64,000 nt of DNA, taken from contig JAFCIZ010000010.1 in assembly GCA_017871115.1 (NCBI GenBank), forward strand, positions 208,501-272,500, read 5' to 3'. The DNA comes from Cunninghamella blakesleeana (lineage: Eukaryota > Mucoromycota > Mucoromycetes > Mucorales > Cunninghamellaceae). Numbering within the stretch: position 1 is the stretch's first letter; every line of letters starts with the position of its first letter. Of the stretch, positions 41,931 to 50,488 are shown piece after piece. Under the pieces are notes generated by a model. That model was not told the DNA's origin. It ran no database searches and saw only the letters and a program-made list of their open reading frames with translations. A program made the translations under genes and the position numbers.

Positions 41931-44900
41931 TTAAGTCATCATCGTATGTCTATAAGATTTTTTTGGATACCGAGGTCTTTTTTTAATAAAATCTCTTTCC
42001 AAACTGCTAAGGTGGTGCTTTCCATTACAACAATCTCGTAAATCTTCTAACCTTTCATCATCGTCATCATCGTCATGATCATGGTGGTGATGGTGATGTT
42101 GATGATTAGATGTCCAATCATTTAAAGTATGTCGTTTATGGTTTGTTGTGCTATTGTTAAATAGATCATGAAGTAAACTTGTTCGAGATCTTCTAGAAGA
42201 AATGGAATGATGGTTTGGTTTAACCATCCTTATAGATCCATTGACTTCAGGTTGGCGTGATAATACATAAGATAAGGACTATACATGTATATAAAATAAA
42301 ATAAATAAAATAATATTAATAATTAAATAAACAACAAATTTTCAAGTTAAATTATCAAAATATTTATATTACCTCAACCCAAGTTTTATGCGTATCCATA
42401 TCAGGTGCCGTTAATCTCATATCACCTTCCGAGGTAGATACATTAATACTGACTTTAGGTAAATCAACTTGGTTATTGTTCGTTACCACGGTCATATCTT
42501 CAATATAAGCTATCATGATCAATAAATAAAATAAAATAAAATAAAGGAAGAGAAATATGAGATGACCATATTAAATTGTAAATTTTTTCTTTTTTTAATG
42601 AAAAATTTATATTTGATGTATTTATCTTACCACTTTTTGTTTTCATATCTTTATTAGATGAACCAGGGGCATGGTTACTCCAATATAATGTACGAGTATA
42701 AGGATGCATCCAAAAGAATCGTTGATGAGAAGGAGCAGTAGGTGAAGATGATTTTAATAATCGTTTATGTCTAGGATCTTTCCATAACCAATGTCCCATC
42801 ATTGTATCCGTAATCAGTGAGATTGTTGGTTCAATAGAGGAAGCCAAAGTAGGTTGAGAAATAGTGTTTAAGGAAGAATCACGTTGTTGATGATCTGTTG
42901 ATAAAAATGATGAGGATTCATGTTGTTGTTGAGATAATGTGTTTTTAGTAAAATTAGGATCTACTTGCGTCATCATATTTTTATTTTTATTATTTTTATT
43001 ATTATTATCAATATTATAATTATTACCATGGTAAGAAGAAAGTCCATATTGACCTGCCGATGTAGAAGTAGATAAAATAGAACCATTAGTTTGCATTGGT
43101 GACTTTCCTTTATGATAGCTATCAGCATAGTGGTGTAAAGCTCCGGATTTAGCAAGTAGGGAAGCTGGTGGAGGTGTCATAGGTCGACTTGGCATATCAC
43201 TAATAGTAGACGATTTTGTGGTAATAGTTCTATCTGTATTAATAGATCGCTTACTTTCACTATTATCTCTTGATACAGTAACACCGTTATTATTACTATT
43301 GTTATTAGCACTCATATCACAAGTATGACGTTTATCATTTTCATTATCATTATTGTCCTCTAAAGTAACGCCATCACGACTACCACTAATAAAACTATTT
43401 TTATCTACTGGTGACGTAGGAGTAGGTAATTGATTTTCATATTGTTTCTTTTGTTCTTCAAGAGCTTTAGCAACAGCAGCTGCAATCATGGCATCAACTT
43501 CCTTTTGATTATGTAATGTTTGTTCATCATCTTTTAATGATTCTGTATTTGCAAGCTGTTCACCATCTTCTTTATCATTTTCTTCCTTTTCTTTTGCATT
43601 ATTATCAATACCACGTTCAGCTGATGATGATGCATTATCATTATCACCAGAGTTGCTGATATCGATAGTTTTATTATTGCTGTTTTTGTTGATTTTGTCG
43701 TTATTATTGACAACACTACGTTCTGTAACTTCAGGTGCATTTTTGTCACTTGAGTTATTACCAACAAAAGCTCCAAGTGTAGCAGCAGCACCGGCAGCAA
43801 GTAAAGCAGCTAATTTACCACTAGTATTGTTGTTATTACCATCCTGATCCGTAGTAGCATCAGTAGAGGAAGCAGATAAATCCTTATCAACATCACGATG
43901 TCCAATAGCTAAAAGAGTATGATTCTTTTCATTATCATCTTCTAAAGTAGTAGTTTGAATACCAATTTCATTTGAAGTAGGTGAAATGGATTGAACGCCT
44001 TTATCAGATAAAGAAGCCTGTTCAGACTGGGTTCCTTGATCTATTAAAAATGAGCCCATATCATATTGAGTGGTCATGTCACATGTTTTCACAAGATCAT
44101 GTTGTGCGACTTGAGCCATTTGATCAATACCAATGGTGGGTGTGGTCTGAGTAAATCCTTCAACTGGTGAAACAATATGACCCTGAATTTCTCTATCAAC
44201 AGAAACAGGAACGGGTAAAGGATCGGTTTGAATTTCCATTTCTAAAGATTGAACAGGTAATGATACTACCACGTCTTCTGTTTGTATATCCATATGATTG
44301 GATTCTTTAGGTAAAGAAACTACTACATCATCTGTTTGTACATCCATTTCTTTGACATCATAAGGATCTGTTTGGATTTCCATTTCTTTTACATCGTAAG
44401 AATCAGTTTGAATTTCCATTTCCATTGATTCAACTGGGTAAGACACGACAACATCATCCGTTTGCATATCCATATGATTGATTTCTTTAGGTAAAGAAAC
44501 AACCACATCCTCGGTTTGTACATCCATTTCTTTCACATCAGAAGGTTCGGTTTGTAATGCCATATCAGCAGATTCTTTAGGTAAGGAGACGACAACTTCA
44601 TCGGTTTGCACATCAACTTCTTTAACTTCAGACAGATCGGTTTGTAATTCTACATCCACTGATTCTTTTGGTAGTGATACAATAACATCATCCGTTTGTA
44701 AATCCATATCTACATATTCTTTAGGTAAAGTTACTACGACATCGTCTGTTTGTAAATTCATATCTACATATTCTTTAGGTAAGGTTACTACGACATCATC
44801 CGTTTGTAAATTTATGTCAACATATTCTTTAGGTAAAGTAACTACAACATCATCCGTTTGCAAGTTCATATCTACTGATTCTTTAGGTAAAGATACTATG

Positions 44901-47695
44901 ACTTCATCCGTTTGCATGGGAGTATCTTTCATGGTACCAGGTAAAAGGACCACCACATCATCTGTTTGTGTATTACTATCCACACCACGACGATCAAGGG
45001 CTTGAGTAATTTGATCCATAAAACTATTTCCAGCATCTGTAAAACCTACAGCCTTTAATAATTCTTGTAAATCTGCATTATTGTTTGTATCGTTATCAGC
45101 TGATCCATTATTATTTTTGGCTTTACTGAAAGCATCAGCAAGGGATAATTCATCCCCAATAGAACGATTGACTTTGGCATGTTCAGATGAAGTAGATTGA
45201 GATGGCTCTGGTTGTCTTGAAAAATGTTTAGAAAGTTCCATAGATAATGAAGTGGGTCCAGTTGATGATGACAACGTATCTTTATTACTATTACCAAGGC
45301 CACTAAGACTACTAAGAATACTACTCTTTGGAGGCGAATTATTAGATGAATGGGATTGTTGACTTCTAGATAATTCCATAGATAAGGAAGTAAAACCACC
45401 AGGTAAAGGTCTTTGTTTTTCTTTATTATTTAATTCCATATCTTCATCTTCATCTTCGTATTCATCAGAGTCATCTTCATCGGAATCATCATCATCATCA
45501 TCATCGTCTTCAGAATCTTCATCTTCATCATCTTCAGAATCTTCAGAAATATATGAAGAAACGTCAGAAGAAAGATTATTTTCATCATCGTCGTCATCAA
45601 AAGTAACTTGAGTTTTACGACGTTTATGAATTGAACGTTGTGAATTATCTGTTGCTGCTGTATTTTGAATATCTTTTAATAAATGATTACGATTGGAACC
45701 TAAGCCAGTAGAAACTCGAGCACGCGATCTTCTTCTTGTACGTCTAGGACGCCTCGAACCAGTAGAAGTAGAATGATCAGGATGGGCTGAAGAAGAATGA
45801 GAAGGAGTTAAACCATGACCAGTAGGAGTTGCATCTTCCCACATTCTTGGATCATTTTGTAATTGTTCAATGGTTTCTTGAGATTCTAATAGTAATTTTC
45901 TTAAGTCCATTCTTTCCTTCTTTTCATTATGTAAGTTGGATCTTAAGGTGGATATCATTCGATGAGCATGACTGAGAGAGGTTTTCAATGTTTCCACTTC
46001 CATGGCTTGTTGTCGAGCATTGTTTGTTTTGGAAGAAGCAGAAGGACTGAGTGTTACAGATTTATTTGAGTTCCCATTTGCGTTGGATGTTTCATCATAA
46101 GCATCACCATTATTAGAAAGTTTACTATCATTTGCTGAACCATTTACATTTGGATGAAGTTTACCATTGTTATTCATTTCTGATAAATCTTGGTGACTTT
46201 TTTTTGCAATACGAGTTTGAGCTTTTGCGATTGCTAACTCAGAAGATAAAAGTTCCATCTGTTTTGTTTGTTCTGCTTTTTCACGTTGCATAGTGGCCAT
46301 ATGCCGCCTTACACTTGTCATATCTTGTTCATGCCGCGTTTTTAATGTTTCTATAGCTGATGTTAATTTATCTTCACGTGCTTTTACTTGTTCTAATTCA
46401 CTGGTCACTGTTTCTAATTGTTTATGGAGTTTGTTTTGTTCTGTGTTGGCTTTATTAAGGTTTTGTTGTAATTCTGTTACTGTCATGGTTAATTCTTGTT
46501 TTGCTAATTCTAAATTCCATGTTTCTTCTTTAAGTTGTTCTATACGTATATAAATATATTAAAAATGAAATAAATAAAAATGAACATCGTTACATAATAG
46601 GAAATAGTTATATGCATATTTATTATTTATTTGTTTGTTTGTTTACCTTCAGCTTCATCCTTTTGACGTAATAATTTTGTTAAAGCTTCCGCAGCCCTTT
46701 CTAAATCAGCTTTTTGAATTTGTAAAGTTCTAAGTTGTTCTTCTTTTTCTTGTAATAAAGTTTGCATTTTACGAACTTCCAATAATAAACCTTGACCAAT
46801 TTCAGTAGCAAATTCAATATCAGTATTTCTACGATCATTATTAGGAACTTTTGATCTTCTTTTTGTTGGTGTTGAACCAGCTGGTGGTGGAGGTAACGGT
46901 AAAAGTGAAGAACTAGACGATTCTTGCATGGATGAACTAGATGGACTAGGTAAAGGATTTAAACCGTTCGATCTTTGATTCAGTAACTAAAATAAAATAA
47001 AATAAAATAGAATAGAATAAAAAAAAAAAAACAACCCCCCCCAAAAAAAAATAGGAGAATGAAACAAAAAAAAAAATTAAAGATTAGTTTCATTATTAGG
47101 AGTTTTGGATTATATATTGCAAGCTTGTAATAGTATAGTGATGGCAATGGTAATACTTTACTTTTTCTTTTCTACTAACACCAGGTACCAAAGAAGTGCG
47201 ATAAGTATTTAAATCACGTTCTAAGAATCTTAATTTTTCTAAAGTTTCAGGTGCCAATTGATCTTGATCACTACTACTATTTGCTGTACCTGTACTATTA
47301 ACACTTCCAGTAGAAGTAGACATAGAAGGTTGTTGTTGTGGAGAGGTATAAAAAGAAGAAGATGCAGTAATATTTGAAGGTAAAATGGATGAGGATGCTC
47401 TTAGTTGATGTTGACGTTTTGTGTCATTTAATTGTTGTATTTTATCTTTAATTTGTCCTATTTGTCTAGTCAACACGTTTTTTTCAATCCCGCCACTACA
47501 TTCCTGCAGTTGTTTTTCCTTTTCTGCTAATTGGTGTTCCAATTCCACGAGCTTTGTTGAAGATCCAGTATTAGTGTTAGTGTTAGTATTAGTCCGAACG
47601 GTGGTTGAACTAGAAGGTGTTGGTAATACAACATTTGAAGGATTATCACGAGATGCTAAAGGTAATGAAGTTGATGTTTTTGGTGATGTAGGCAT
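41931..47695 (-). CDS. Num1/ApsA/Mcp5-type cortical anchor protein with C-terminal PH domain
   Basis: Five exons: 47695-47162, 46986-46647, 46539-42631, 42509-42373 and 42278-41931, 1755 aa. Residues 45-110 and about 215-420 are coiled coil (LEVRKMQTLLQEKEEQLRTL, ELQQNLNKANTEQNKLHKQL). An Asp/Glu-rich block lies at about 605-661. Residues 816-1062 hold 16 tandem QTD/QTE motifs, followed by five degenerate ones. The PH domain (about 1530-1652) has the Num1 signature: GHWLWKDPRHKR, QRFFWMHPYTRTLYWSN, then AYIEDMTVV and DMRLTAPDMDTHKTWVE. The tail is His/Asp-rich and basic. Num1/ApsA/Mcp5 proteins bind PI(4,5)P2 at the cell cortex and anchor dynein and mitochondria, positioning nuclei. Domain order (coiled coil, internal repeats, C-terminal PH) agrees, although the repeats differ from yeast Num1 repeats. 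Confidence 0.85.
43930..44985 (-). repeat. Coding tandem repeat: QT[D/E] motif array inside the Num1-like protein
   Basis: Sixteen QTD/QTE motifs recur with spacing of mostly 18 residues (unit like LQTDDVVVTLPKEYVDMN) or 12 residues (unit like IQTDSYDVKEME), that is 54 or 36 nt. Five weaker motifs follow (FTQTT, TTQYD, GTQSE, GVQSI, GIQTT). The core hydrophobic-Q-T-D/E resembles the LC8 (dynein light chain) binding consensus. DNA copies differ at many synonymous sites, so the protein motif rather than the DNA is being kept. Confidence 0.85.
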
Positions 47696-48634: not shown

Positions 48635-50488
48635 TCACTTTTTTAAAAAATAATCAAGAGTTTGATAAAATCTGTCTATTCCTAATTTAACAAGGTGCCA
48701 TTCTAAACAAAAAGTAAGTCGAAAATAGCCAGGTTCTAAAGTATGAAAAATATAACCGGGTGCAACATATACTTTGTTTTCCAATGCTAGTTCCCATATT
48801 TCTCTTTCTAATTTAAATGTTATTTCCTTATCATGTTGTTGAAATAAATGCCTGACATCTGCAATAATAAATAATCCCGCATCACAAGGTATATAATCAA
48901 TGCCTATTTGTTTCATATATTCCGTAGTTTGTCCATAAATTAATTTTAATCGTTGTCTATTGGTTTCAATGAATGTATCTATCCACAATGTATCCTTTAA
49001 TAAATTACATAAGATTTTATCTTCTACTGTCGACATATATCCAAACATGCTGTGTATAAAAAATAATAAAATGAAATATATAAAATAAGTGAATATGAAT
49101 ATAAATAAATATATAGTTTCAATGATATTATTGTGCGTCTACTTTACGATGTTAATTTAACATTGGCAATAGCTTCTTCATTATATTGACTAATGACAAA
49201 TCCAACTCTTAATCCATTGATGGAAAAATCTTTCGACATACCATAAACTACATGTACTAGCTGTGGGTCAATATATTGTTCAACGTTATCTATACTAAGT
49301 ACCGATATAAATGGATCAGGTTGATTGTTTTCCACATGACTAAAAGTTGATAATCCATAGACTTCATCGAACAGAATGTGTAATTGATTTTTTGATGCAA
49401 ACTTTAGTAATTTTTTTATATCGTCCCTAGAATAACAACTATGTTTATAAATAAAGTAAAATAAAATAAAATAAATGCATATATTAAGATTAATGTAAAT
49501 ATATGTCAAATTACATATATATAATAATATATTAAAAAGTAAGGTATATACCTTCCTTGAGGATTTCTAGGATTTGTAACTAATAATACCTTGGCTTTAT
49601 GTTGTGCATTCTGTTTAGATGACCATTCTTTTTCTAATAAATCCATATTAATAGGTGCATCAAGTGACTCATGTGGATATAAAGGGATTAAATCAACATT
49701 GGTACCAACACATACATCTAAGTCAAAATTTCCGTAATATGGTGCTAATACCAAAACACTATCGCCAGGATCTGTAAAGGAATGGATAAATTGCCAAACT
49801 GCTGCCCCAGCGCCCTGTGTATATAAAAATTATCGTCATATCAAAACAAAAAAAAAAAAAATGGAAATAATGATAATATAAAAAGTAATATAAAGGTTAC
49901 TATGAATATAGATACAAATATGAGTATATATATATATATATATATAATGGTTCGTGTATTTAATTACAGGCACAACTATGCATTGGTTAAATTCTAGCGC
50001 CTTGGCAGGTTTAAAATGTCGATTCATCAACTCCGCTACCAACTTTCTTAAAAGTCTACTACCATGTGGATCGCCATAGTCGATCATCTATCATATATAA
50101 AGTTTGCGTTTAATAAAAATACAAATAAAATAAAAAATGACGTGGTACTTTTTCTATTTATTATTTACCGAAGAATTAAATTCAAAGCACTTATTTATCT
50201 TAAGAAAAGAAGGACGAGAAAGGACAAACAATAGAATAAAATAGTTTATTAGTTTATCTCTTTATTATTATTATTGATATTAATATTCATTATTATATCA
50301 TTTACTTTATCTACTAGTTCTTGCCTCATTAAATCACTATGAGCTAATCCCATATTAATAACACCATCGGGATTATTCGTTGGATGATATAGTAAAGGTA
50401 TAGCCTTTATTAATAATTCGCGTAAAGGGACAGGGATTGATAAGTTTTGATAGGCTCTATTCGAGAGCTTCCCAGTTTTATTATTCAT
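48635..50488 (-). CDS. PLP-dependent aminotransferase, ACC-synthase-like (fold type I)
   Basis: Five exons: 50488-50306, 50087-49968, 49814-49552, 49438-49148 and 49049-48635, 423 aa. Landmarks of the class I/II aminotransferase fold appear in order: substrate-side GLAHSDLMRQELVDK; YGDPHGSRLLRKLVA; the PLP-phosphate loop GAGAAVWQ; VLLVTNPRNPQG with the cofactor-contact Asn; FDEVYG with D213; and SKDFSINGLRVGF, in which K258 forms the Schiff base. The C-terminal CLEWHLVKLGIDRF contains no extra domain. The N-P-x-N-P-Q-G and Y-G-D-P-x-G-S patterns are those of ACC synthase and its fungal ACS-like relatives. The true substrate cannot be told from sequence. Mucoralean ethylene synthesis should not be inferred from this alone. 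Confidence 0.9.

Follow-up and report, generated by a model that had tools for sequence, protein, structure and literature searches.

A Tandem Array of Putative LC8-Binding Motifs in a Num1-Type Cortical Anchor of Cunninghamella blakesleeana and Its Relatives

A Num1-type cortical dynein anchor of the fungus Cunninghamella blakesleeana carries in its central region a tandem array of x-Q-T-[D/E] motifs, which we interpret, with a probability of about two in three, as a multivalent LC8-binding spacer that would staple two anchor chains together. The gene lies on the reverse strand at positions 41931 to 47695 of a 64,000-nucleotide stretch of contig JAFCIZ010000010.1 (assembly GCA_017871115.1, positions 208,501 to 272,500), referred to here as the window; all coordinates below are window positions. 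The array was first noticed in a preliminary description made from the letters of the window, and the observation is confirmed here and proves wider than first noted. Its recurrence in many relatives suggests that the middle of Num1-type proteins, so far unexplained, has a role that can be tested. From motif statistics and published properties of LC8 and Num1, we infer LC8 binding, chain pairing, stiffness, and an effect on dynein.

The Motif Array

The core array consists of 16 x-Q-T-[D/E] motifs at 44222 to 44983 (reverse strand), with the glutamines at residues 816–1062 of the spliced protein. Eleven of the 15 steps between neighbors are of 18 residues and four are of 12, so that both the count and the spacing given in the preliminary description were recovered exactly. 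That description also listed five degenerate motifs, where we count seven (EIQGH, FTQTT, VAQHD, TTQYD, GTQSE, KGVQSI, and GIQTT) at 43949 to approximately 44209 on the same strand; one search pattern shows five of the seven, and three pass the LC8-peptide threshold introduced below. Shuffling the whole protein 2,000 times yielded a mean of 0.68 x-Q-T-[D/E] motifs and at most 5, compared with the 16 present, and when the array region was shuffled by itself 5,000 times, the mean was 0.17 and the maximum 3.

Counting positions from the glutamine, the +1 threonine is invariant in the core motifs and is encoded by four different codons, while the glutamine codon is CAA in all 16. The pooled between-unit ratio of nonsynonymous to synonymous differences (pN/pS) for the Q-T-[D/E] columns is 0.09, with pS at 0.52–0.57; silent differences between units are thus plentiful, with the Q-T-[D/E] anchor as the tightest part. 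Synonymous drift around a kept motif had been claimed before and holds for the anchor, with the qualification that the linker is also kept (pN/pS 0.19 for positions +3 to +9 in ten 18-residue units) and that positions −4 to −1, which belong to the LC8 motif, are the loosest (0.69). Valine at +6 is present in all 16 units, again via four codons.

AlphaFold2 run on a five-sequence alignment gave the array a mean predicted local distance difference test score (pLDDT) of 35.6 and a predicted template modeling score of 0.26, with low-confidence strands (pLDDT ~50) in the earliest of the 18-residue repeats. A solenoid or other folded repeat was considered and set aside for want of a confident AlphaFold2 structure, which with five sequences is weak evidence either way. 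Pfam matches of the array (MazE, Gp22, and TetR_C_39) all fell below the cut-off and are not believed.

Agreement with LC8 Motif Rules

The genome encodes at least one LC8, whose 89 residues were read from three exons and align without gaps over 88 residues with solved LC8 chains (best E-value 7e-46). Its dynein intermediate chain, located via a WD40 fragment search of the genome after neither the PF11540 profile nor an N-terminal fragment query found it there, carries VVYSKEIQTSEG at what we take to be the position of the LC8 site in intermediate chains of animals. The candidate LC8 site within it, YSKEIQTS, is close to the KEMEIQTD of the window array.

LC8 motifs comprise eight residues, for which PMC6607443 gives preferences, binders, and non-binders, including a preference for a branched side chain at −1. 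A scoring matrix was built in-house from 25 binder peptides, of which 18 came from Tables 1 and 2 of PMC6607443, three from the texts of PMC6607443 and PMC12057147, and four are weak binders. The test set of non-binders comprised 30 of 43 listed rows, the other 13 having been dropped as lacking a usable anchor or repeating another row, and the threshold of 4.97 is the tenth percentile of binders left out of the matrix. Scoring of this kind had been proposed in the preliminary description as a check on its LC8 interpretation and came out in its favor: 15 glutamine-centered 8-mers of the array exceed the threshold (12 of the 16 core motifs and three looser ones), as against none of 70 elsewhere in the protein and an average of 1.9 (maximum 7) in 500 shuffles. 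Two expected LC8 sites fall below it, KENEVQTD of Nup159 (3.28) and the YSKEIQTS of the C. blakesleeana intermediate chain (4.22), so that motifs under the threshold may still bind. Three other Nup159 motifs, VDNGLQTE among them, score 5.15–8.50.

Motif Arrays in Related Proteins

Relatives were gathered with the conserved N-terminal part of a Hesseltinella protein (P0002) as query; 7,990 candidates were scored and 155 proteins matched. The set analyzed comprises 124 proteins, namely the 120 listed among the 155 matches and four from the C. blakesleeana genome itself, three of which (the paralogues on contigs C1, C2, and C3) are represented by single main exons rather than full proteins. It was divided into two groups at one branch of a quick N-terminal tree (Shimodaira–Hasegawa-like approximate likelihood ratio test support 89, several long branches), using marker proteins chosen with the motif counts already known. 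Group A contains 70 proteins, including that of the window, the C1 paralogue, metagenome proteins, and those of named genera of the order Mucorales. Group B contains 54, made up of 53 across the branch and the very long-branched C3 paralogue placed by hand; among its members are the C2 paralogue, Umbelopsis, Glomeromycota, and one Mucorales paralogue set.

In group A, [D/E]xx[T/V/I]Qx[D/E] was counted 576 times versus 25 in shuffles, and in group B 23 versus 19 times, so the array is not private to the strain, as the preliminary description had required of its interpretation. At least four matrix matches are present in 63 of the 70 group A proteins and in 5 of the 54 in group B; total matches number 525 against a shuffle expectation of 103 in group A and 67 against 64 in group B, and up to 21 strict motif matches were found in a single relative. 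The LC8 interpretation is partly supported: the array follows the motif rules more closely than chance or the rest of the protein does, and similar arrays extend to most of group A, with binding itself still inferential.

Among 1,207 unique group A contexts of [T/V/I]Q sites, an acidic residue stands at −4 in 58%, versus 6% at −3 and −5. Acid at −4 outranks the average over six other offsets in 67 of the 70 group A proteins, and in 38 of the 50 group B proteins that have at least five such sites. When −1 is left unconditioned in the pattern [D/E]xxXQx[D/E], X is valine, threonine, or isoleucine in 493 of 630 group A cases, an enrichment over background of 6.3-fold for valine, 4.0-fold for threonine, and 3.4-fold for isoleucine (serine 0.1-fold), where group B instead has lysine at 4.3-fold. 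Neighboring sites stand 11–13 residues apart in 381 of 758 steps (5% in shuffles) and 10 or fewer apart in only 22 (14% in shuffles), and such scarcity of short steps would follow if each site needed space for the hub dimer. The steps range from 11 to more than 40 residues, with the 12-residue step present in 60 of the 70 proteins. Linkers vary by lineage, from VVVSLPKES in Cunninghamella and QVDVSDVG in Absidia to the alanine-rich linkers, about 30 residues long, of Mucor and Thamnidium, while the glutamine motif persists. The persistent part resembles LC8 motifs, with V, T, or I at −1, an acidic residue at both −4 and +2, and steps mostly of 11–13 residues.

Two other accounts of the motifs can be weighed against these figures. 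A cluster of S/T-Q sites for Mec1/Tel1-type kinases would explain why threonine is the commonest residue before glutamine in group A (507 of the 1,207 contexts), and yeast Num1 is among the proteins counted as having S/T-Q clusters (PMC3564818). It is nevertheless scarcely credible, given that a single one of the 16 window core motifs is T-Q, so that the clustered S-Q/T-Q sites of such a domain are absent from the core array, that valine and isoleucine freely replace threonine, and that serine is depleted ten-fold at acid-flanked sites of the relatives. A neutral low-complexity spacer produced by repeat expansion would fit the fast change of unit number and linker among relatives and the few or no motifs in seven of the 70. 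We regard it as improbable in view of the invariant threonine with its four synonymous codons, the excess of one motif on unrelated linkers in many lineages, and the occurrence of a separate array in Umbelopsis vinacea. The latter protein (P0105, group B) has QNGTQTD-type (GTQTD) repeats at approximately residues 690–1100, with steps of about 44 residues, probably an independent gain in a group where arrays are otherwise missing. Elsewhere in the set, three VQTD sites were noted in Funneliformis P0109.

Evidence against LC8 Binding and an Alternative Partner

Several observations weigh against reading the arrays as LC8 sites. The matrix separates binders from non-binders only moderately, with an area under the curve of 0.74 when binders are left out singly, so that calls on single sites are soft. 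The non-binders listed in PMC6607443 include PLK1 IQKMLQTD, which has an LQTD core, the canonical-looking DQCSTQTD and LDTSIQTE, and a CUL3 peptide with LQH. In the 16 core motifs, the residue at −1 is leucine in six and methionine in two, and the 75 xQ[T/S][D/E] sites of the window's five-protein ortholog group have 18 leucines, 18 valines, 14 alanines, 11 isoleucines, and 4 methionines there. Leucine at −1 is a softer objection, though one not removed, since the VDNGLQTE of Nup159 sits in a Dyn2-binding stretch. Tyrosine or histidine occupies +1 in 177 of the 1,207 group A contexts (15%), with VQYE, VQHE, or IQYD repeats common in P0008, P0045, P0007, and other proteins of the group; we know of no LC8 precedent for these residues at that position. 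The Tyr/His-type repeats of P0008 sit on alanine-rich spacers of EDPSIAEAE type. Acid at −4 is also slightly raised in group B (25% of 531 contexts), seven of the 70 group A proteins have fewer than four matrix matches, and homology to Nup159 had to be rejected because the match of the window array is not significant (E-value 0.25) and the P0001 array has no match.

A further difficulty is the DVVVSLP block, an acidic residue followed by VVV, which is kept at +3 to +9 after most motifs in 44222 to 44983 (reverse strand) and which, we presume, resembles SUMO-interacting motifs; the preliminary description does not mention it. The repeats may accordingly bind a partner other than LC8, and in the window protein they may do so through this block, acting as a SUMO-interacting-motif-like or strand-forming element in a larger unit to which Q-T-[D/E] also belongs. 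Such a partner would account for the constraint on the block and its invariant +6 valine, for the leucine and alanine at −1 in the window's ortholog group and the tyrosine and histidine at +1 in other relatives, and for the low-confidence strands predicted over the first 18-residue repeats. It would also suit the confinement of three or more copies of D[VI][VIF]VxL, among the 124 proteins, to the window protein (10), P0001 (12), and P0002 (8). The alternative is nevertheless unlikely overall: the block is absent from most relatives' arrays while the glutamine motif stays, and the titles and abstract openings of the openly licensed papers that matched Num1 together with SUMO and dynein mention no such motifs.

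Sequence statistics lend the LC8 reading good support across the relatives and less for the Leu/Met-type motifs of the window. At −1 before Q[T/S][D/E], the rest of group A has threonine 188 times, valine 111 times, and isoleucine 66 times, and by this comparison the motifs of the window seem to be derived and weaker than those of the relatives.

Proposed Role of the Array

In the arrangement that we favor, two anchor chains joined at a putative N-terminal coiled coil would run next to each other through a presumably disordered middle, where LC8 dimers could bind corresponding Q-T-[D/E] strands on the two chains and so supply many staples. What would otherwise be a floppy link from the membrane-binding PH domain to the N-terminal head would thereby become a stiffer arm of tunable length, and the dimer would be stabilized. 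By analogy with the rod that Nup159 forms with LC8, stiffness and reach of the arm may be the properties affected. LC8 is described as binding exclusively in a bivalent, two-chain mode that favors pairing of a client with itself in register (PMC12017986), as a dimerization hub rather than a cargo adaptor (PMC6607443), and as favoring dimerized, often coiled-coil partners (PMC5746249). Yeast Num1 forms homodimers, and loss of its central repeats reduces spindle penetration (PMC6297085). Stapling is the simplest joint reading of the two-chain mode of LC8, the homodimers of Num1, and central repeats lacking an identified role.

The preliminary description had offered two functions, recruitment or clustering of dynein light chain and the zipping of two Num1 chains. 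If the motifs bound LC8 so as to collect light chain in free form, or dynein complexes, at the cell cortex, without stapling Num1 chains, the same motif statistics (the matrix matches and the 576 versus 25 count) would be expected, and yeast Nup159 does recruit Dyn2 to nuclear pores, proposed to be relevant to spindle orientation (PMC10437821). We nonetheless rank zipping above recruitment because of the exclusively bivalent binding and hub function reported for LC8 in the articles cited above, and consider gathering of this kind quite unlikely.

A broader and more tentative proposal, which we would put at somewhat below even odds, is that the variable center of the Mucorales Num1-type anchors is the largest known LC8 scaffold, in which some 15–25 dimers would zip two chains and the length of the rod, governed by linker and number of motifs, would set the distance between dynein and the membrane. 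If so, the central repeats of Num1 proteins generally would serve as interchangeable spacer arms, which LC8 would stiffen in this group, and LC8 would be linked to cortical anchoring outside the motor itself. The arrays would exceed the 11 sites of ASCIZ and offer natural variation of motif and linker for studying multivalent LC8 assembly, and short peptides together with a single small, soluble protein would be enough to test the role of an LC8-binding central region. The preliminary description knew of no account of such an array in the family; this agrees with the openly licensed literature, in which we found no description of one as judged by titles, abstract openings, and some passages, which is not proof of absence.

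Gene Structure and Genomic Context

The anchor gene has five exons on the reverse strand (47695–47162, 46986–46647, 46539–42631, 42509–42373, and 42278–41931) encoding 1,755 residues; GT/AG junctions were placed by eye with P0001 as a guide, and the joined frame is open. The C-terminal domain is an Mcp5_PH domain (PF12814) at approximately 42373 to 42830 (reverse strand), split by an intron, of which the part in exon 3 alone scores 55.5 bits against a Pfam cut-off of 25. This score places the protein among the Num1/ApsA/Mcp5 anchors, in agreement with the earlier assignment; the corresponding match in P0001 is 89.5 bits. Exon 2 (46647 to 46986, reverse strand) encodes an N-terminal region conserved among the relatives listed, which together with the start of exon 3 is likely to be a coiled coil, although all coiled-coil-type Pfam matches, those of exon 3 as well as those of P0001, were below the cut-off. 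A long run rich in Asp, Glu, and Ser lies upstream of the array in the same exon (approximately 45430–45600, reverse strand).

Mcp5_PH matches were found at four genes of the genome, on contigs C1, C2, C3, and C10, the last being the window gene. The closest protein among the relatives listed is P0001, also of C. blakesleeana, with 63% identity over the searched region and 92% over the N-terminal alignment. C. echinulata proteins were placed beside the C1 and C2 paralogues in the N-terminal tree. Next to the anchor gene, at 48635–49829 (reverse strand), lie exons of a gene for a class I/II aminotransferase, with three pieces exceeding the cut-off for PF00155.

Comparison with Known Systems

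The Dyn2-interaction domain of yeast Nup159 has five Q-T motifs stepping 13, 12, 12, and 12 residues, like the array steps described here, and its VDNGLQTE resembles the VDMNLQTD and ADMALQTE of the window array. The five LC8 sites lie between FG repeats and a coiled coil and form a stiff rod with LC8 (PMC12017986), although Nup159 is a nucleoporin and its sites are fewer. Against the PDB, both the Absidia array and the stretch from the C1 paralogue gave unrelated low-complexity matches.

The LC8-binding domain of ASCIZ/ATMIN is a disordered multivalent LC8 array, with 11 sites in the human protein, called the most of any partner (PMC5963919, PMC12017986). ASCIZ differs in being an animal zinc-finger transcription factor, whereas the candidate sites of the window protein are more numerous (16 in the core) and stand ahead of a PH domain. 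Homogeneous complexes were obtained from Drosophila ASCIZ constructs in which 6 or 9 residues linked the sites, and linkers of 12 and 16 may already count as long (PMC10046861); in the window protein, an 18-residue step puts 10 residues, and a 12-residue step 4, between successive 8-residue motifs.

Saccharomyces cerevisiae Num1 shares by description the layout proposed for the window protein, with an N-terminal coiled coil, central tandem repeats, and a C-terminal PH domain, and its center consists of thirteen 64-residue repeats whose role has not been identified (PMC6297085). The C1 paralogue of C. blakesleeana and the other array-bearing relatives have the same family membership and layout as the window protein and carry D-x-x-[T/V/I]-Q-x-[D/E] arrays. 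The C1 paralogue has two motif blocks (e.g., DQSTQMD and VDAGIQYE). These relatives differ from the window gene in having unrelated linkers, as does the C1 paralogue, and in the dominance of T/V/I at −1, where L/V/A prevail in the window's ortholog group.

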